From: a virus
Length of the DNA: 47,807 nt
IMG/VR virus record: IMGVR_UViG_3300004463_000594
Location: 1 to 47,807 of that record
Reading direction: 5' to 3' (one strand)
Shown here: positions 25,955 to 33,026 of the stretch, one piece after another
How positions within the stretch are numbered: position 1 is the stretch's first letter
Layout: every line of letters starts with the position of its first letter
Notes under the pieces: generated by a model
Databases searched by the model: none
What the model was told of the DNA's origin: nothing
The model's input: only the letters and a program-made list of their open reading frames with translations
Position numbers and translations under genes: made by a program

Positions 25955-28900
25955 TTACCGCCCGACCAGAGCGCCAACCTTAAGTTGTCTTGCGCCAGTC
26001 ATGCACACATAGCGCGTGTCATCGCCGCAATTATGAACTATCAATCCGTTATTGACAGTTAAGGCATAAGTGTGCTCGACCTCAAGGTTGAAGACATCGT
26101 TCCGTCCGGCCTCCTCGACGGAAACAACCACGGCATCGACCTCGTTGGGACGCAGAGTCGTCGGACCTGAGGCAAGCGTGTCCCCCAGAGAGTTCTCCGC
26201 CTCGACCCAGCCGCGCTCCGTGGTCAGGATAAGATGCTCCGGCGTGCAGATCACGGAGCGGCCATCACGCGTCGTGACCCTGATGGTCTGGACATTCTTG
26301 CGGGTTTGGCGGCAGCCCCAGAAAATCATGTACTGGCCATCGACCTGGATCACCTCACCGACCTTGCCGACCAGATCCCGGATCTTGATATCTCCGTCCC
26401 TGGTCTGGACCAGCGTGTTCCCGTGCAGGCAGTGGTCCTCCGCGGTCGTATCAATATCGTCGAAATCGGTCTCTGACCTTTGCAGCACCGGCACCGTGCG
26501 CAGCCAGTGGTGACAGGACTCGAACACCCACAGCCCCGGCTTTTCCGGCCGGTCTGCGCGGGCGTTCTCCAGCATGTCCCGCATCTTCTGCCAACCGCCG
26601 ATCCGGTTGTTGTCGGCCGGGCTCATGATCAGGTTGTGGCCGCCCTCGGCTGCCCCCTTGCGCATCTCGTCATAGATGCTCTCCCGGCCGAGCTTGGAAT
26701 AGATCGAGGGATCAGCGACACAGCCGGAGAAACGGTAGCCGGTGGAGCGATGCGCGATGCCTTCACCGAGCGCCAGGTTGGTCAGCCGTAGTCCTTCGTT
26801 CGGAACGATATCTCCGCTCTTGGTCTTGGCGACGGTATACCACTCCTTGATCCGGATCAGGGAGCCGCGGGGAAACGTGAAGCCGTCCAGGTCGGGGACC
26901 GGGTTGCCGTCCGAGACGGCCCAGATGCCGAGACTGGCCGGTGCGGCTGAGCCCCAGTCGAACGAGCGCCGATAGCCCCAGGTCGTCGGAATATGGAAGG
27001 GCGTTAGGAAATGGATGTCGGGAACAATCAGGTCGTCGAAGAAGCCGCCTGCGACGATGTCCCAGTCTCCTTTCAGCCAGGCATTGACCAGGGCCGCCGA
27101 GCCGGTGCCGCGCAGACGGGCAGCATAGGTCGGATCGTTCTTCATCATCGCCGTGTTGTCTTCGAGGCGACTTGGGATGTAGATGCGAAGCTCTCCGGTT
27201 TCCTCGTCCTTGATCGGCGTCCAGCCCTGCGGTGCGGGGGAGATGAAGCGGGCTTTGACCCAGGAATTTCCGCTGACCCAGATGAAGCCGTTCTGGCGAA
27301 TGATGAAGCTGTGGGTCTCCGGAACTCCAATGCAGTAGACCTGCCCCTCAAAGTCCAGCATCTTCACGGCCTCCGCCGTGATGTGCAATTCAGCCTTGCC
27401 GGACTCATCAAGCCGGGATTGCTGACCCCGGCTGCTCAGGACTCTCGGGATGGAAAAGCCGGAGCCGAGTTCGTTGAACGGCTTTAGGGAGATCTTGTCA
27501 GAGTCCTGATGGCTAAGAACACCAATCCTGTGGTTTGGCGTGCAGACCATCGTGATACCGTTCTGGGAAATGGCGGCCATCATTCCGGTGTAGTGGGATT
27601 TGTGAACCTGACTGGCCTCGGACGGGATGATTTCTCCGTCTTTCGTGACGGTCATTACAGCGTCGCCGACTTGGAAATCCTCGATGTTTTTCCAACCGGA
27701 CGGGGTCAGGACTTCACCATAGGGAACGCAGTGGCCTGAACCACCCGGATTACCGGTCATGATTAATTCAACCGGCGCTCCTTTTGCAGAGCGGAGCGTT
27801 CCCCTCATGCGATTAATTGCATCTGGGGTTGACCAGTTTGTCACCTCTTCAAACACCAAAAAGCTATTTTTGTTTATAATCCTATTTTTGGTGACATAGT
27901 GATTAGCATCTGCTACAGTCAGATCATAAACAACTTGAGGTTCACATGGTTCAAAGACTGCCACGCCATGACCGTATGGCTGCAATATATTCCGATGTTC
28001 ACCAGTATAGGGATGGGCATACGATACCGGATGGGTATGGTTATATTCTGGAATATAATCCTCTTCATCCTTATAGAACTGCTTCTGGATACGTAAGGCA
28101 GCATCGACTTGTGATGGAAAGAAAGCTTGGGCGTTTTCTTCTTGAAACTGAAGTGGTTCACCACGAAGATGAAGATCCAGCAAACAACGATCCCGGCAAC
28201 CTGAAACTGTTTGCCTCTCAAGCAGATCACATGCACTACCATCATCTCCAGGATGCCGCCTGCTATGACGCAGTTGTGATTGAACGGGTTCGACAAGCTG
28301 CCGCAGATCCGAAGGTAACTCTGGTAGGTCTAGGTATCTCTGAACCAACCATTCGGAAGATATGCCGGATGTATGGGATATTCTGGAAGCGTGCGAATAA
28401 GGCTGACTTGACAGAGGATCAGGTCCGTGAAGCACTACTGGGCAGGACAACCGAGGACGCGGCCCTTCTGCTGGATGTCCATCCTCAGACACTCTACAAC
28501 CGCTTTGACCATCTTCTGGATAAACGGAATTCCCCAGGCTTTCTCGATGAGCATCGAGAAGAGTTATGTAAGATTGCCAAACTTCAGGGAGTTTCCGTTG
28601 CGGCTGATATGTTTGGGACGAGCAGGAAGGTACTTTATGATGCTCTGAAGCGCTGGGGTGTTCGTGAAAACCTTGAGTATCAGGGGAAAAGAGATCTGAT
28701 GTCCCGCAAGGATGAAGTTCTGCGGCTAATCCAGGAGCATGGCTACACCAAGGCGACGGAGATGTTGGGAAAGTCGAAGAACGCCCTTCGGGAAGCTGTG
28801 AAACGCTGGTCAGAACAGGGTGATCTACCGGATGAATTTGCTCACCTAGCTTCTCCCCGGAAGAGTCGAAAACTTCAACCCGAACGCATTCCTTCAGACC

Positions 28901-30040
28901 TGGGGTAACCGTTGCTGTAACTGGCTTCGGTCCCTCCAGAGTCATAACAAAGTCTCCGACCTGAATGGTCTCGATGGGTCTGTATGATCCATCGGCCATC
29001 AGGACCGGGGTTCCATGAGCCACACAGTAGCTATGCCCCTGGTACTCCTCTGTGGCGGCAACGTCCCACAGATGGCGTAGCTTCAAAACCGCACCATTTG
29101 GAAACACCCACGTCGCGTCCCCCTTATGATACGTGGCACCAAGCGGCGGAAAAAGAGAACTGCATCTAGCTTGAACTTCTTCTAGCTGTTTGAAGCGGCG
29201 TCGAAAAAAAACCCCTTTGGCATCGGCGCCGTATCTGTTGGCGTGCTGCAACCATTTGCCAATAGCGCCGTCCGTGTTGTGAGTGATTATATCGTCATTG
29301 GCGACAAACAGGCCGTCCTTGCTATCAACCTTGATGCACTGGGTCAATGCCAGCCCGTCGTAGACGATAGACTTGATGGAAACCCAGAGATCCAGGGACT
29401 CGACCGGCAGGGAGACTTCCTGCCGGTCGTCCATTAGGCTGCGGATATAGTCGGTGGTGACGGTCAGTTCGTTCATACCGACGCGCATGCGCCAAAGGTG
29501 TCCGCGCGAGGCCCTGACGGTTCTGCCATCTACCAGCGTGATACGGAAGACATCCTCCATGCCCTGCGGGTAAACACCGATCACCCGAATGGCAACGCCG
29601 TTCGGCCCGTGAACCTCGTCACCAACCTTGATCTCCCCCATAGCCCGATATCCGGTAGGGGTAGACACCATCTCCATTAGTGGTAATGCCTTCCCACCGC
29701 CTCTCGCTCCGCCAAAAAATATCTCAGGAAACGGGCAGGACAGCAAGGCGAACTGAGGGCCGGGGGTGCCGTCCTCCCGGTACTGCGGTGCCCAGACGGC
29801 GGTATGGTTCTTGGATTGCGCCGCCCTTTCCTGATCCGGCCCCTTGGGCTTGGGCGGGCGGCCCACCGGGCGGCCGGTATTGCGCTTTTTCTGATACTTC
29901 TTCTGGTACTCCCGCATGTACTCCTTGCGCTTGCGGTAGCGGCGTTGCTCCCTGGTCAGTTCCGGCTCGTCCTGATGTGCCGTGGCGGTATCTGCCTGAT
30001 CTTGGGAATCAGGCGTGTTCGTGATCTCTTCTTCCGACAT
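25955..30040 (-). CDS. terL: terminase large subunit precursor with four inteins
   Basis: ATG 30040 (MSEEEITNT) is coupled TGATG to the upstream gene; the frame stays open for 1361 codons. N-terminal about 110 residues are basic with an AT-hook-like RPVGRPPKPKG (58-67). Terminase motifs are split by inteins: Walker A GGARGGGK (110-117) then T256; FPNGAVLKL (313-321); Walker B FLVFEE (727-732); coupling motif MTGNPGG (761-767); nuclease acidic residues D1028 (SFDWGS), D1110 (VADPS) and D1340 after EDH. Inteins occupy 118-255, 339-725, 771-925 and 1204-1337. Exteins join to 547 residues, the usual TerL size. TerL is the ATP-driven packaging motor and headful/cos nuclease; splicing would be needed for activity. 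Confidence 0.9.
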   Translation of the reverse strand: MSEEEITNTPDSQDQADTATAHQDEPELTREQRRYRKRKEYMREYQKKYQKKRNTGRPVGRPPKPKGPDQERAAQSKNHTAVWAPQYREDGTPGPQFALLSCPFPEIFFGGARGGGKALPLMEMVSTPTGYRAMGEIKVGDEVHGPNGVAIRVIGVYPQGMEDVFRITLVDGRTVRASRGHLWRMRVGMNELTVTTDYIRSLMDDRQEVSLPVESLDLWVSIKSIVYDGLALTQCIKVDSKDGLFVANDDIITHNTDGAIGKWLQHANRYGADAKGVFFRRRFKQLEEVQARCSSLFPPLGATYHKGDATWVFPNGAVLKLRHLWDVAATEEYQGHSYCVAHGTPVLMADGSYRPIETIQVGDFVMTLEGPKPVTATVTPGLKECVRVEVFDSSGEKLGEQIHPVDHPVLTSVSQLPEGRSSTFPTSPSPWCSHAPGLAAELHPCGTSDLFSPDTQGFHEHPSASEHHKVPSCSSQTYQPQRKLPEVWQSYITLLDAHRESLGNSVYPEDGQSGCRVSEDGHPAEGPRPRLSCPVVLHGPDPLSSQPYSHASRISHTSGISSEWLVQRYLDLPELPSDLRQLVEPVQSQLRHSRRHPGDDGSACDLLERQTVSGCRDRCLLDLHLRGEPLQFQEENAQAFFPSQVDAALRIQKQFYKDEEDYIPEYNHTHPVSYAHPYTGEHRNILQPYGHGVAVFEPCEPQVVYDLTVADANHYVTKNRIINKNSFLVFEEVTNWSTPDAINRMRGTLRSAKGAPVELIMTGNPGGSGHCVPYGEVLTPSGWKNIEDFQVGDAVMTVTKDGEIIPSEASQVHKSHYTGMMAAISQNGITMVCTPNHRIGVLSHQDSDKISLKPFNELGSGFSIPRVLSSRGQQSRLDESGKAELHITAEAVKMLDFEGQVYCIGVPETHSFIIRQNGFIWVSGNSWVKARFISPAPQGWTPIKDEETGELRIYIPSRLEDNTAMMKNDPTYAARLRGTGSAALVNAWLKGDWDIVAGGFFDDLIVPDIHFLTPFHIPTTWGYRRSFDWGSAAPASLGIWAVSDGNPVPDLDGFTFPRGSLIRIKEWYTVAKTKSGDIVPNEGLRLTNLALGEGIAHRSTGYRFSGCVADPSIYSKLGRESIYDEMRKGAAEGGHNLIMSPADNNRIGGWQKMRDMLENARADRPEKPGLWVFESCHHWLRTVPVLQRSETDFDDIDTTAEDHCLHGNTLVQTRDGDIKIRDLVGKVGEVIQVDGQYMIFWGCRQTRKNVQTIRVTTRDGRSVICTPEHLILTTERGWVEAENSLGDTLASGPTTLRPNEVDAVVVSVEEAGRNDVFNLEVEHTYALTVNNGLIVHNCGDDTRYVCMTGARQLKVGALVGR
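26030..26431 (-). mobile_element. TerL intein 4 (class 1 mini-intein in the nuclease motif, 134 aa)
   Basis: Precursor residues 1204-1337. Cys1 start CLHGNTLVQT; block B ICTPEHLILT; block F NDVFNLEVEHTYALT; C-terminal LIVHN followed by Cys+1. No endonuclease insertion is visible between the splicing blocks. The insertion splits EDH from CGDDTRYVCM, i.e. the last nuclease acidic motif of TerL. Confidence 0.9.
27266..27730 (-). mobile_element. TerL intein 3 (class 1 mini-intein after the coupling motif, 155 aa)
   Basis: Precursor residues 771-925: starts CVPYGEVLTPSGWKNIED, block B MVCTPNHRI, block F GQVYCIGVPETHSFI, ends WVSGN then Ser+1. The penultimate residue is Gly rather than His. No endonuclease domain seen. 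The flanks TGNPGGSGH and SWVKARFI join to a typical terminase coupling region. Confidence 0.88.
27891..27919 (+). promoter_or_regulatory. extended -10 promoter-like sequence for the HNH gene
   Basis: GTGACA, a 17-base spacer, then TACAGT with a TGC extended -10, ending 26 bases before the HNH ATG. A separate perfect TATAAT lies at 27875-27880. Both are antisense to the intein 2 C-terminal splicing codons. Confidence 0.55.
27946..28908 (+). CDS. HNH homing endonuclease, antisense inside TerL intein 2 (320 aa)
   Basis: GAGG five bases ahead of ATG 27946 and the promoter-like sequence just upstream support it. HNH_3-type domain residues about 45-100: ASGYVRQHRLVMERKLGR (46-63), VVHHEDED (70-77), NNDPGNLKLF (80-89), ADHMHYHH (93-100). 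Then several helix-turn-helix repeats of the DNA-binding type found in such nucleases: near 125-145, 165-190 (TTEDAALLLDVHPQTLYNRF), 215-240 (GVSVAADMF) and 265-290 (YTKATEMLGKSKNA). Base composition is more AT-rich than the surroundings. It would cut terL lacking the intein, promoting homing; target not known. Confidence 0.88.
   Translation: MVQRLPRHDRMAAIYSDVHQYRDGHTIPDGYGYILEYNPLHPYRTASGYVRQHRLVMERKLGRFLLETEVVHHEDEDPANNDPGNLKLFASQADHMHYHHLQDAACYDAVVIERVRQAAADPKVTLVGLGISEPTIRKICRMYGIFWKRANKADLTEDQVREALLGRTTEDAALLLDVHPQTLYNRFDHLLDKRNSPGFLDEHREELCKIAKLQGVSVAADMFGTSRKVLYDALKRWGVRENLEYQGKRDLMSRKDEVLRLIQEHGYTKATEMLGKSKNALREAVKRWSEQGDLPDEFAHLASPRKSRKLQPERIPSDLG
29276..29689 (-). mobile_element. 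TerL intein 1 (class 3 mini-intein inside Walker A, 138 aa)
   Basis: Precursor residues 118-255, between GGARGGGK and TDGAIGKW. First residue Ala118, not Cys or Ser. It has the class 3 triad: Trp in block B (H181-L-W183), Cys235 in block F (ALTQCIKV) and Thr253 at G:5 (IITHN), the mechanism where the block F Cys replaces residue 1. +1 residue is Thr. No endonuclease domain. Confidence 0.85.
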
Positions 30041-30492
30041 CAATAGTATCCAAGGAATGGGATGATGCGTCCCTGGAGGGTCAGCATCGGCTGGAGCAGG
30101 GCGACGATCTCTCCCTCTGCCTGGACGGAGATCAGGGAAAAATCGAGATGGGACAGCTTTTCCGCGTCGGCCTCGTTGGTCACTTTGGCGATCCGCAACC
30201 GGGCGCCGTTGGGAAAGTGCCAGATACCGCCCCGGCGCACGGCGGCGGCCTGGGGCAGGTAGTATTCGCAGGCCAGGTGCATGTTGGAGAAGCTGAGAGA
30301 GGTATTGGCCGCCAGCAGGACATGGGCAGCGGGATCACCGTTGCCGTGCTCGATGATGGCATCGAACGCGGTGATGCAGCGGCCCCACGGAGTATCGACG
30401 CGCTGCTTGCCAAGCCCCGGCCAGCGGGGAGTTGCAGAAGAACGCTCGAACGTATTGCGCCGGATATTGGTTCTACTGAACGGCAGACTCAA
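30040..30492 (-). CDS. TerL ATPase-domain-like protein lacking the P-loop (150 aa)
   Basis: TTG 30492 overlaps the upstream stop as TTGA; GGGGGAG precedes it. Its second half (about 85-150: GGIWHFPNGARLRIAKV, then EADAEKLSHLDFSLISV, QAEGEIVALLQPMLTLQGR) matches the TerL segment around FPNGAVLKL and Walker B, but the acidic Walker B pair is replaced (SVQAEGE) and no Walker A is present. It ends overlapping the terL start (TGATG), so it is co-translated with TerL. Similar to 25379..25873; perhaps a packaging regulator or small-subunit-like partner. Confidence 0.7.
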   Translation of the reverse strand: MSLPFSRTNIRRNTFERSSATPRWPGLGKQRVDTPWGRCITAFDAIIEHGNGDPAAHVLLAANTSLSFSNMHLACEYYLPQAAAVRRGGIWHFPNGARLRIAKVTNEADAEKLSHLDFSLISVQAEGEIVALLQPMLTLQGRIIPFLGYY

Positions 30493-30854
30493 CGCTCCCC
30501 CCTGGAATCCGGTTTGATGCTCTCTTTGGCTTTCTTGATCTCATCATCGGTGGCGTCCTCAATATTGATCAACTTATCGTCCGCCTTCTTGATGCTGGAA
30601 AGAAGATCGTCGAGCTTGATTTGGACAGCACGCTGATCACGGTTATTCGCACCTTGGATGAGAAACACCATTATGAACGTCACCAGCGTGGTCCCCGTAT
30701 TCGCCCACAACTGCCACGTGTCAGAAAATCCGAATACAGGGCCGGTCGCTGCCCATACCAGAACTGCGACGATGGCAAGGATGGACGCCTGCCAGCTTCC
30801 GGTGATCTCCGCGGCCTTGCGGGAGACTGAGGAGAACCAGTCCCGAACCTTCAT
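30489..30854 (-). CDS. low-affinity iron permease-like membrane protein (121 aa)
   Basis: ATG 30854 overlaps the IscB stop (TGATG), with CGGAG upstream. Two membrane segments at about residues 22-42 (ASILAIVAVLVWAATGPVFG) and 49-70 (WANTGTTLVTFIMVFLIQGA), then DQRAVQIKLDDLLSSI and a charged tail; this matches the PF04120 iron-permease pattern (W-NTGTT-TF-MVFLIQ then a KLDEL stretch). In bacteria that family is of uncertain transport role. Its original upstream neighbour was probably terS, since removing the IscB element would restore terS-permease spacing. Confidence 0.8.
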   Translation of the reverse strand: MKVRDWFSSVSRKAAEITGSWQASILAIVAVLVWAATGPVFGFSDTWQLWANTGTTLVTFIMVFLIQGANNRDQRAVQIKLDDLLSSIKKADDKLINIEDATDDEIKKAKESIKPDSRGER

Positions 30855-32227
30855 CAAAAACTCCGTGCGGAAACCCGGCCGTTAACGGCCGGGAGGAGCA
30901 CGGGCGTCAAGTCCAGGGATTGAGGGGAGTAGGTATAGCCGTCACTGCGTGCAAGCACCTTGCAGAAGCGGTGGGCGATGCCTTCGACGGTGGTGTGGGG
31001 CATTTGGATGTTGAAGTTGCCTGAGGAACGGACGGCGGCGCGACCGGTGTAGGAGCCGGCTTTTTTGCCGGTTGGGACAGTAGCTCGGATCAGGTCGCCG
31101 GTGCGGACGCCGTGAACGGTTTTAGTTCGAGGCAGATAGCCACGGGGGAAGCCGTGTTTGTTGACGCGGGTTCGCTGGTAGGAGCCGCGGCCGGTGGCCT
31201 TGATGGCGAGCGTTTGCATCTGCCAGTTCAGCAGGGTGTCGACGGTCCCGGTGCAAGCGGCATCGAGGGCGTGGGTCTTCGGTACGCCGAGGCGGGACCG
31301 GTTCCACTTGGTGCGGCCGCCGCTGGATGTCTCGACCGGTAGTCCGGTTAATCGGAGTTGGCGGACCAGGCTGTTGCGGGTGGCGTTGACGGCTGCTGCG
31401 GCGGCGAGCGGCTTCTTCGCGGTAGCGAGGATGCGCTTGAGCCGTTCGGGATCGCGTTTCAGGAAGTCCCGGACGTCCTTCGAGCCTTTGCGCCGGTTGC
31501 ACTTTTCGCAGGCGAGGCACAGGTTGGAGATGCGGTTGGAGCCGTTCTTTGCCCGAGCCTGGATGTGTTCGATCTGGAGAGGCAGGTGTTCCTTGTCGCA
31601 ATAGGCGCAGCGGCGGCCCCATTTCTCCAGCAGGTATTCACGAACCTCGTAGCCGGCCAGCGTGCCCTGCTGGTACTCGATGCCCGAGATGTTCGGGTTC
31701 TCAAGCAACTGCATATCGAAGCGAACGCTTTCGACCGTGATGGCAGTGACAGGAACCAGCCGGCGGTAGTGGTTTGTCCAGGAGATCAGGTTGTCGCAGC
31801 GGGAGTTCAGTGAGGGCGGCAGCCAGCCGGCGAGACGGGTGCGGTTGTCGAACCGGGGCTGGCGGTAGCGCAGGTTTGCCGAACGCCGGCGACCGCGGTA
31901 GTTGCCCCGCTGGATCATGTGTTTGCGGACAGCCTTGCCGCGATGCTCGATCTCGGCGAGGTGGAGGACGTGCTGGGCCTCCTCGTCCTCCCGGACGATG
32001 GCGACGCCGCTGGTGGTGGCGCCGGGATCGAACTTGAGGCGGACCGGCTGGAGGGATGAGTTCTCCAGGGTTCGATCAACCAGGCGGATGGTGTAGGGGT
32101 TGAGACGGTGGACGCGGGCCCTGCCTTTGTCGAGCAGTTCGCGGGCCCGTGCCGGATGACAGGGCATCAGAGGCTTCTGATGCCTGTCGAGGACGAAGAC
32201 GCGGGATTGGGTTTGTTTGGTCTGCAT
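30854..32227 (-). CDS. iscB: IscB RNA-guided nuclease (457 aa)
   Basis: Start MQTKQTQSRVFVLDRHQKPL at 32227 begins the PLMP domain (residues 9-50, VFVLDRHQKPLMP then LLDKGRARVH); a longer upstream frame is the non-coding RNA region. RuvC I: LKFDPGATTSGVA with D67; an Arg-rich bridge helix near 105-123 (RGNYRGRRRSANLRYR); RuvC II: ITVESV with E166; HNH domain about 205-248 with CAYC, IEH (219-221), SNLCLACEKC; RuvC III: THALDA with H319 and D322; C-terminal TAM-interacting part. Family enzymes use an omega-RNA to cut DNA. All key residues appear intact. Confidence 0.92.
   Translation of the reverse strand: MQTKQTQSRVFVLDRHQKPLMPCHPARARELLDKGRARVHRLNPYTIRLVDRTLENSSLQPVRLKFDPGATTSGVAIVREDEEAQHVLHLAEIEHRGKAVRKHMIQRGNYRGRRRSANLRYRQPRFDNRTRLAGWLPPSLNSRCDNLISWTNHYRRLVPVTAITVESVRFDMQLLENPNISGIEYQQGTLAGYEVREYLLEKWGRRCAYCDKEHLPLQIEHIQARAKNGSNRISNLCLACEKCNRRKGSKDVRDFLKRDPERLKRILATAKKPLAAAAAVNATRNSLVRQLRLTGLPVETSSGGRTKWNRSRLGVPKTHALDAACTGTVDTLLNWQMQTLAIKATGRGSYQRTRVNKHGFPRGYLPRTKTVHGVRTGDLIRATVPTGKKAGSYTGRAAVRSSGNFNIQMPHTTVEGIAHRFCKVLARSDGYTYSPQSLDLTPVLLPAVNGRVSARSF
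30874..30893. repeat. 20-bp palindrome at the right end of the IscB element
   Basis: Perfect palindrome CCCGGCCGTTAACGGCCGGG, inside the last IscB codons and 20 bases from the permease start. It resembles the palindrome at 32514-32533, as expected for end hairpins of an IS200/IS605-type element. Confidence 0.65.
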
Positions 32228-32516
32228 GGTGCTTTGTGTTAGGCGGGTTACCCCGCTCACTGATTGCTCAGGTGACGGTATCAGCCCTGGCGGGGCTGTA
32301 CGCTCCTCTCGGGAATGTTGGGCAGCAGCCGTATGCGCGCCGTCGTTTCGTGCGTTCCCAGGCTTGTCTGCACGACGCGCTCGAAGAGCCCGGGGCTGAG
32401 GAGGCACCCCGGGGTCCGTCTTTGGCTTACTGCTCAACGTAGTCACATCAACGATGCCCTTCTCTGTGACTTTCCCTGGTCAACGTAGGCTTGAACTCCT
32501 TTCGGACTTCAAGCCT
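32228..32516 (-). ncRNA. candidate omega-RNA of IscB
   Basis: The roughly 290 bases directly upstream of iscB on the same strand have no credible protein and fold strongly: a 9-bp stem AGGCTTGAA/TTCAAGCCT (32508-32516 with 32487-32495), AGTCACA/TGTGACT, CCCGGGG/CCCCGGG, nested CGTCGT/ACGACG and CGTGC/GCACG stems, CAGCCC/GGGCTG, and a GCGGG-GTAA-CCCGC hairpin at 32243-32256 ending 15 bases before iscB. This layout, with the RNA before iscB and the guide at the far 5' end, matches known omega-RNAs. The guide would lie just above the first stem, in terS-derived sequence. Confidence 0.75.
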
Positions 32517-32533
32517 GGCCTTTTAAGGCCGGG
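32514..32533. repeat. 20-bp near-palindrome at the left end of the IscB element
   Basis: CCTGGCCTTTTAAGGCCGGG, matching the right palindrome (30874-30893) in 16 of 20 positions; it overlaps the terS TAA. Confidence 0.6.
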
Positions 32534-33026
32534 TTATTGACTTTCGCGGGATCTCTTCTTCCTCAAGGTCGTCCATCTCGTCGCGGTTCAGGACGCGGGC
32601 AGCCTTGCGCTTGAGCTTCTTTGAGTCATGTTTATTGCCGCCGGTGGTAACGACCTGGCCGCCAACCTTGCCGTAGGCCGCGACCCATTGCTCCGCAGTC
32701 ATCGCGGGCGGCAGTTCGACCACCCACTTCTGCTGCTGCTTGACGTCCTGCTCGACCTTGTCCTTCTGGTCCAGGATCTGCTTGCCGAGCCAAATCTGCA
32801 TGGTCCGGTCTCCGTTGAGGGCCGACTGCATCTGTGCCCGACGCAGGCTGATGGCGCCTCGGGCCTGACCGCTTTCCCAGACGGTCTTCAGCGGATCTCT
32901 CTTGAGGCGGGCCTTGACGGTCTGGACACTGGTGCGGAAGTAGGCCGCCACCTCTTCTACGGTGCAGCACAGTTCGGCCATCCTGCCAAGCTGAATCGGA
33001 TCGAGAACGACTTTGACGGGCTGCAT
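32523..33026 (-). CDS. terS: terminase small subunit-like protein (167 aa)
   Basis: ATG 33026 follows AGGAGGAG. Residues about 12-45 (LGRMAELCCTVEEVAAYFRT then SVQTVKARLKRD) form a helix-turn-helix like those of small terminases that recognise pac/cos DNA; about 60-95 (ALNGDRTMQIWLGKQILDQK) is a helical oligomerisation segment and the tail is acidic (DEMDDLEEEEIPRK). It lies two genes before terL, the usual order, now separated by the IscB element. The stop overlaps the element end, so insertion kept the gene intact. Confidence 0.8.
   Translation of the reverse strand: MQPVKVVLDPIQLGRMAELCCTVEEVAAYFRTSVQTVKARLKRDPLKTVWESGQARGAISLRRAQMQSALNGDRTMQIWLGKQILDQKDKVEQDVKQQQKWVVELPPAMTAEQWVAAYGKVGGQVVTTGGNKHDSKKLKRKAARVLNRDEMDDLEEEEIPRKSITRP

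Follow-up and report, generated by a model that had tools for sequence, protein, structure and literature searches.

In published descriptions of inteins, the endonuclease is encoded in frame, and its expression is tied to that of the host protein. A different arrangement is present in the terminase large subunit gene (terL) of a viral DNA of 47,807 nucleotides (IMG/VR record IMGVR_UViG_3300004463_000594; this whole stretch is referred to as the window), where a complete HNH endonuclease gene is read from the opposite strand across the middle of an intein. This locus raises the question of how one stretch of DNA can hold two genes in antisense orientation, each with an open frame, and of what the nested gene does.

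Results

A complete HNH gene lies antisense within a terL intein

The terL precursor is a single minus-strand ORF (Table 1) whose extein matched phage terminase families in profile searches, with matches of Hint and intein models to the same ORF. Four inteins are present, as read from the junctions in the translation, and the boundaries of intein 2, the subject of this study, are common to 42 aligned loci. Intein 1 has Ala as its first residue (GGGK/ALPLMEM...), and intein 4 has the junctions EDH/CLHG...VHN/CGDD; the relative L001 is without intein 4 and reads EDHCADGTRYACMTG at the empty site.

A preliminary description of this DNA had placed the HNH gene on the plus strand and the splicing blocks on the minus strand. 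Both ORFs proved to be intact, with Pfam HNH and helix-turn-helix matches on the plus strand and Hint matches on the minus strand. The description had put the antisense part of the intein at about 280 residues; we measured about 320, and this part is not linker only, as the HNH gene also covers block B and a strand resembling block N4. The shared register had been given correctly: a minus codon consists of plus positions 2 and 3 and the next position 1, such that plus positions 3 and 2 correspond to minus positions 2 and 3, respectively.

The HNH protein matched the HNH family of PHROG (1.2e-15), and Pfam helix-turn-helix motifs were found at residues 168-185 (HTH_17) and 258-292 (HTH_23, E 9.5e-10). 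AlphaFold modelled the HNH core with a pLDDT of about 95. A Foldseek search with the whole model gave no significant structural match, the one to 1u3e being weak and non-significant; the protein is identified by its profile matches. Block F of the intein is antisense to the leader of the HNH gene, immediately outside the coding part. A promoter-like site ahead of the gene (27891-27919) had a chance-level score, and a conserved sigma-70 promoter in this region was rejected, as matches occurred at chance level only.

Elsewhere in the window, an IscB-like ORF of 530 residues (30854-32446, minus strand; identified by eye) lies beside a HEARO (omega) RNA (RF02033, 106.6 bits; 32298-32541, minus strand). 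The two are likely to form an RNA-guided nuclease locus adjoining the phage packaging genes.

Table 1. Positions of terL, intein 2 and the nested HNH gene in the window.
Feature	Positions	Strand	Remarks
terL (terminase large subunit) precursor ORF	25955-30043	minus	single uninterrupted frame, 1362 aa; PHROG terminase and Hint/intein matches
TerL intein 2	27866-29026	minus	387 aa, C1 ... N387 then S; extein YQGHSY/SFLVFEE; from translation
Intein blocks F and G (VYDLTVADANHYVTKNRIINKN)	27866-27934	minus	NCBIfam intein_Cterm and alignment
Shine-Dalgarno-like GAGG	27937-27940	plus	9 nt ahead of HNH ATG, a suitable spacing; antisense to edge of intein block F; read from sequence
HNH endonuclease gene, complete	27946-28908	plus	320 aa; HNH domain and helix-turn-helix motifs; antisense to intein residues 40-361
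HNH catalytic core, residues 52-91	28099-28218	plus	Pfam HNH_3, E 3.5e-7
Block N4-like beta strand of Hint fold, SCPVVLHG, residues 193-200	28427-28450	minus	antisense to HNH codons 161-168; pLDDT ~95
Predicted Hint helix, residues 153-166	28529-28570	minus	antisense to HNH codons 195-208; pLDDT ~91; modest dip in plus synonymous divergence
Intein block B region (...LGEQIHPVDHPVLT)	28808-28855	minus	antisense to HNH C-terminus, doubly coded; alignment and low synonymous divergence in both frames at gene ends, L013 cluster

The arrangement recurs in two intein groups

A first profile scan gave 80 viral loci, chosen by the HNH protein alone and not by openness of the antisense frame; in about 70 of these the same antisense frame was stop-free across the whole HNH gene and far past it. 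L001, a close relative, shares both the arrangement and its register. Grouping at 80% identity gave 42 antisense clusters and eight freestanding relatives. A second scan, seeded from a group whose intein occupies another insertion site, added 53 clusters and ten freestanding relatives, and all 95 antisense HNH genes lie in one register. The search for other inteins with an antisense HNH gene, proposed in the preliminary description, has hence found them in large numbers, cultured phages included.

The antisense ORFs of the relatives match terminase and Hint families. Junctions of the window's type read YQGxx/C...NKN/ followed by S, T or C, and those of the second group, which lie in Walker A motifs, read ...GGRG/CVHPDTLIDTPSG ... 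VNHN/SGKS. The second group is hosted by terminases and, on our reading of the flanking motifs, by SNF2-like helicases (L092, L107) and an AAA-type gene (L094). Both groups share the HNH family, strand, register and position relative to the splicing blocks, and a single origin is plausible; in an HNH tree, whose 81 columns are too few to separate one origin from several, the HNH proteins of the P-loop and TerL sites cluster apart. In a reverse test, in which loci were selected on intein sequence, an antisense HNH gene was found in the same place and on the same strand in 28/28 members of the L013 clade, the clade to which the narrow intein alignment used as query confines this linkage. A scan of bacterial genome contigs for chromosomal copies gave one weak freestanding match only.

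Cultured phages that carry the arrangement in terL include Pectobacterium phages such as Ymer and the Pseudoalteromonas phage PHS3, and the arrangement explains how their terL genes came to be misannotated. In PHS3 (KX912252.1, 17336-19314), the annotation of terL omits the N-terminal part and the intein, and the HNH gene is annotated on the opposite strand. In Ymer (OP748252.2, 2451-4715), terL is annotated as a hypothetical protein and the HNH gene is unannotated.

Intein-free alleles are seamless

PHS3 and its near-twin AL have closely similar terL DNA, but the 900-bp intein and the HNH gene inside it are precisely absent from AL, in which GGAG/SGKS is joined in frame. The two are 98-100% identical up to 200 bp downstream and 500 bp upstream of the insertion, and beyond these limits identity mostly drops, a pattern only suggestive of co-conversion of the flanks. 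A further difference is a DNA methylase gene that lies between terL and portal in PHS3 (L172:3683-4603) and is missing from AL (L171). For the window's own insertion site, the joined extein was matched by 80 loci, of which 78 were confirmed as contiguous without the intein. L033, which contains the intein, and L297, which does not, share 97% identity across 816 bp of flanking DNA. In these pairs and others we find the presence/absence polymorphism expected of a homing endonuclease, and, judging from such alleles, the intein is mobile.

The HNH motif is kept across the 42 antisense clusters of the first scan except in L077. An in-frame deletion in L077 and L202 takes the later part of the motif, and these are apparently decaying homing genes in which both frames are still open.

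HNH proteins beside the terminases of HK97-type phages help to package DNA, and the nested gene could likewise encode a domesticated nuclease that aids packaging by the terminase and is not a homing enzyme. Such a role would fit the location of the gene inside terL in most loci and its retention by every intein-positive allele of the L013 clade. It is harder to reconcile with the occurrence of the same arrangement in helicase and AAA-type genes, with the common intein-free terL alleles, which are entirely without the HNH gene, and with the partial loss of the motif in L077. We therefore regard domestication as improbable.

The intein retains the elements of a splicing domain

The first residue of intein 2 is Cys in the window and wherever the loci hold this position, except in L054, where a Thr is probably due to misalignment. 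The last residue is Asn, followed by Ser in the window and by Ser, Thr or Cys across the 42 loci. AlphaFold predicted the Hint fold with a pLDDT of about 92-98 over most of residues 1-78 and 334-387, and Foldseek matched the model to the PI-SceI, gp41-1 and Prp8 inteins with a probability of 1.00. Most of residues 82-330 had a pLDDT below 50, the exceptions being the helix at 153-166 and the strand at 193-200. This strand reads LSVPVxLH in relatives and, by our own assignment, resembles block N4.

Profile searches of the intein middle in the minus frame gave no nuclease match, the HNH gene being on the opposite strand. Rfam gave no match within the intein, either to group I introns or to any other known structured RNA, and no intron match anywhere in the window. 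The penultimate residue in the window's intein type is Lys instead of His (NKN), which speaks against splicing, and intein 2 is therefore only presumed competent to splice; the viability of cultured phages with such an intein in terL argues for splicing activity.

The intein could also be dead, or split by the HNH gene, with TerL made by another route such as a split intein, RNA splicing or a frameshift. The predicted disorder of the middle is consistent with this proposal, as is the precedent of fractured genes, in which split inteins reportedly occur with freestanding endonucleases. However, the TerL frame is single and unbroken between the two halves, the splicing blocks are under selection, the junctions are canonical, the Hint fold is predicted from the two terminal segments with a shared internal strand, and the cultured carriers are viable. 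A dead or split intein is, accordingly, very unlikely.

Selection switches strands along the intein

Substitution rates were compared among the 16 members of the L013 cluster. Divergence at 4-fold sites was 0.51 in the C-extein and 0.30-0.40 in the intein outside the HNH gene. Within the body of the HNH gene it was 0.023 at minus 4-fold sites, as against 0.246 at minus position 2 and 0.255 at HNH 4-fold sites. At both ends of the HNH gene, synonymous divergence was about 0.1 in both frames. Selection thus acts on the plus strand over the nuclease core, on the minus strand over the splicing blocks, and on both at one internal island. At this island, HNH 4-fold divergence falls from mostly 0.2-0.45 to 0.027 at the codons homologous to 161-168, and third-base entropy is low across 32 clusters; the dip coincides in place with the predicted N4-like strand. 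The Pectobacterium phages Ymer and Taid show, in both frames, stronger conservation of the overlap than of the remaining intein sequence.

These divergences indicate that the core is a plus-strand gene, that its ends are doubly coded and that no more than an open frame is kept over most of the antisense middle. The substitution-rate analysis suggested in the preliminary description thus revealed position-specific rates in which the constrained strand changes at the HNH ends and again at a single internal island. Together with the stop counts given below and the search for further inteins, this makes three independent tests by which selection for coding on both strands, as it had proposed, is supported, with the restriction that for most of the middle it is openness alone that is maintained.

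A further proposal is that the antisense middle is a functional domain, kept for its own fold, and that the HNH reading is secondary. One strand and one helix within the middle are confidently predicted, and the strand is constrained; outside these islands, however, the minus residues vary freely, as seen in the rates at minus position 2 and at minus 4-fold sites. The properties of the encoded peptide are near those of a synonymous null, with small shifts, among related loci, towards fewer prolines and aromatics and more serine. Selection on bulk properties of the peptide was rejected, as the shifts were only small. A functional middle is thus highly doubtful, and, because its amino acids change freely, the middle is best seen as mainly translated filler.

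The minus frame is not open by chance

The preliminary description had counted about 60 HNH codons ending in TT, CT or TC, none of them before an A, against about 12 expected. Our recount gave 60 such codons with 0/60 preceding A; 21.5% of HNH codons start with A, from which 12.9 violations would be expected by composition. Codon shuffling with the amino acid order kept, which had been named as a check, never yielded an open frame: synonymous shuffles gave a mean of 9.85 minus stops and a minimum of 2 in 20,000. The remaining two antisense frames of the HNH gene contain 8 and 20 stops. With no stops against either expectation, the open minus frame of the window is not due to chance.

Homologues, in which stops in the minus frame had also been proposed as a test, gave the same answer. 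The 42 antisense clusters of the first scan have 0 stops in 9636 codons versus 295.6 expected, and the 53 further clusters at P-loop sites have 0 versus 252.6. Freestanding relatives have 36 stops versus 46.6 expected (eight, first scan) and 43 versus 47.7 (ten, second scan). Pooled, 95 non-redundant antisense HNH genes contain 0 stops versus about 548 expected, and 18 freestanding genes contain 79 versus about 94, although the loci are related and the shuffle totals over clusters are hence not independent trials. Phe followed by Ile, Met, Thr, Asn or Lys, for which a minus stop is unavoidable in this register, occurs 0 times in the antisense HNH proteins versus 87 expected (redundant set). 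Long open antisense frames are frequent in high-GC genomes, and the window has 60% GC, but the HNH gene has only 50%, near-copies of one sequence were excluded by the 80% clustering, and the shuffles and the near-chance freestanding controls lead us to reject an accident of composition or codon bias, to which we attach almost no probability.

Discussion

Intein 2 of the window has intact frames under selection, double coding at the ends of the nested gene and at one internal strand, canonical boundaries and seamless empty alleles, and the arrangement recurs. Our results suggest that it is very probably a homing intein whose endonuclease is a complete antisense nested HNH gene. Plus-strand transcription and translation, splicing, cleavage and homing are the parts of this explanation that we infer from sequence. 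The minus strand would be translated straight through the nested gene, and the two Hint halves would form a fold that splices the terminase. Some 250 residues, the larger part of the middle coded antisense to the HNH gene, would be carried as disordered filler and removed by protein splicing. The plus strand would yield a separate HNH-helix-turn-helix endonuclease, which may cut intein-free alleles at the insertion site, with repair of the break copying the intein and the endonuclease together. The antisense placement may let the nuclease be expressed apart from late terL.

It is also likely, though with somewhat less assurance, that these loci represent a widespread and previously unrecognised class of phage mobile element, namely inteins with an antisense nested homing endonuclease in a fixed register. 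The class had perhaps one ancient origin, with later movement between Walker A sites and the downstream TerL site occupied in the window. The nuclease gene would have overgrown parts of the splicing domain, which we propose as the reason why a Hint strand and a helix-turn-helix segment are specified by one and the same stretch of DNA, and its orientation would separate nuclease expression from that of late terL.

In these elements, which occur in many phages, some of them cultured, two selfish functions occupy opposite strands of the same DNA, and selection on each strand can be measured. The existence of antisense overlapping genes is often contested, and these loci offer abundant natural data on them. 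They also make it directly possible to test how a homing gene can be regulated independently of the essential gene that hosts it, and what amount of non-functional peptide can be tolerated by an intein. We found no report of an endonuclease antisense inside an intein in the openly accessible literature; an older report in subscription journals is possible.

Several known systems resemble the present element in part. Homing inteins with an in-frame endonuclease, such as PI-SceI, share with it the Hint domain, a conserved site in an essential protein, a linked endonuclease and empty-site polymorphism; here, however, the endonuclease is encoded on the opposite strand by a gene with separate start and stop codons, and the reading in the host frame is mostly filler. 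Fractured genes, reportedly described by Dassa et al. in 2009, combine split inteins with freestanding homing endonucleases, so that the endonuclease is likewise a separate ORF within the intein region. In that case the intein and host gene are physically split, whereas here one continuous ORF runs through the nested gene. The I-HmuI-like homing endonucleases of phage group I introns combine an HNH nuclease with helix-turn-helix DNA-binding modules, as does the present protein, the structural match to 1u3e being only weak and non-significant; the present gene is hosted in an intein, antisense, and not in a self-splicing intron. Freestanding phage HNH endonucleases, for example that of Pseudomonas phage BILI, belong to the same HNH family by sequence but carry antisense stops, and served as our control group.

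The ShiLan domain (Arsenault, Gosselin and Gogarten, Genes 2025; PMC11855218) is a same-strand, out-of-frame HNH gene in a methylase insertion without splicing blocks. Nesting of a similar kind was seen at L216:3001-4050 and L237:3001-4050, where a genuine terL intein contains an out-of-frame HNH ORF read from its own strand. The ShiLan domain and the present element both have an HNH gene hidden in an insertion that is open in the host frame, and a patchy distribution among phages. In contrast to the ShiLan insertion, which is not thought to splice, the present HNH gene is antisense, lies inside a genuine intein with the full set of blocks, shares an internal splicing strand by double coding, and occurs in at least two intein groups.
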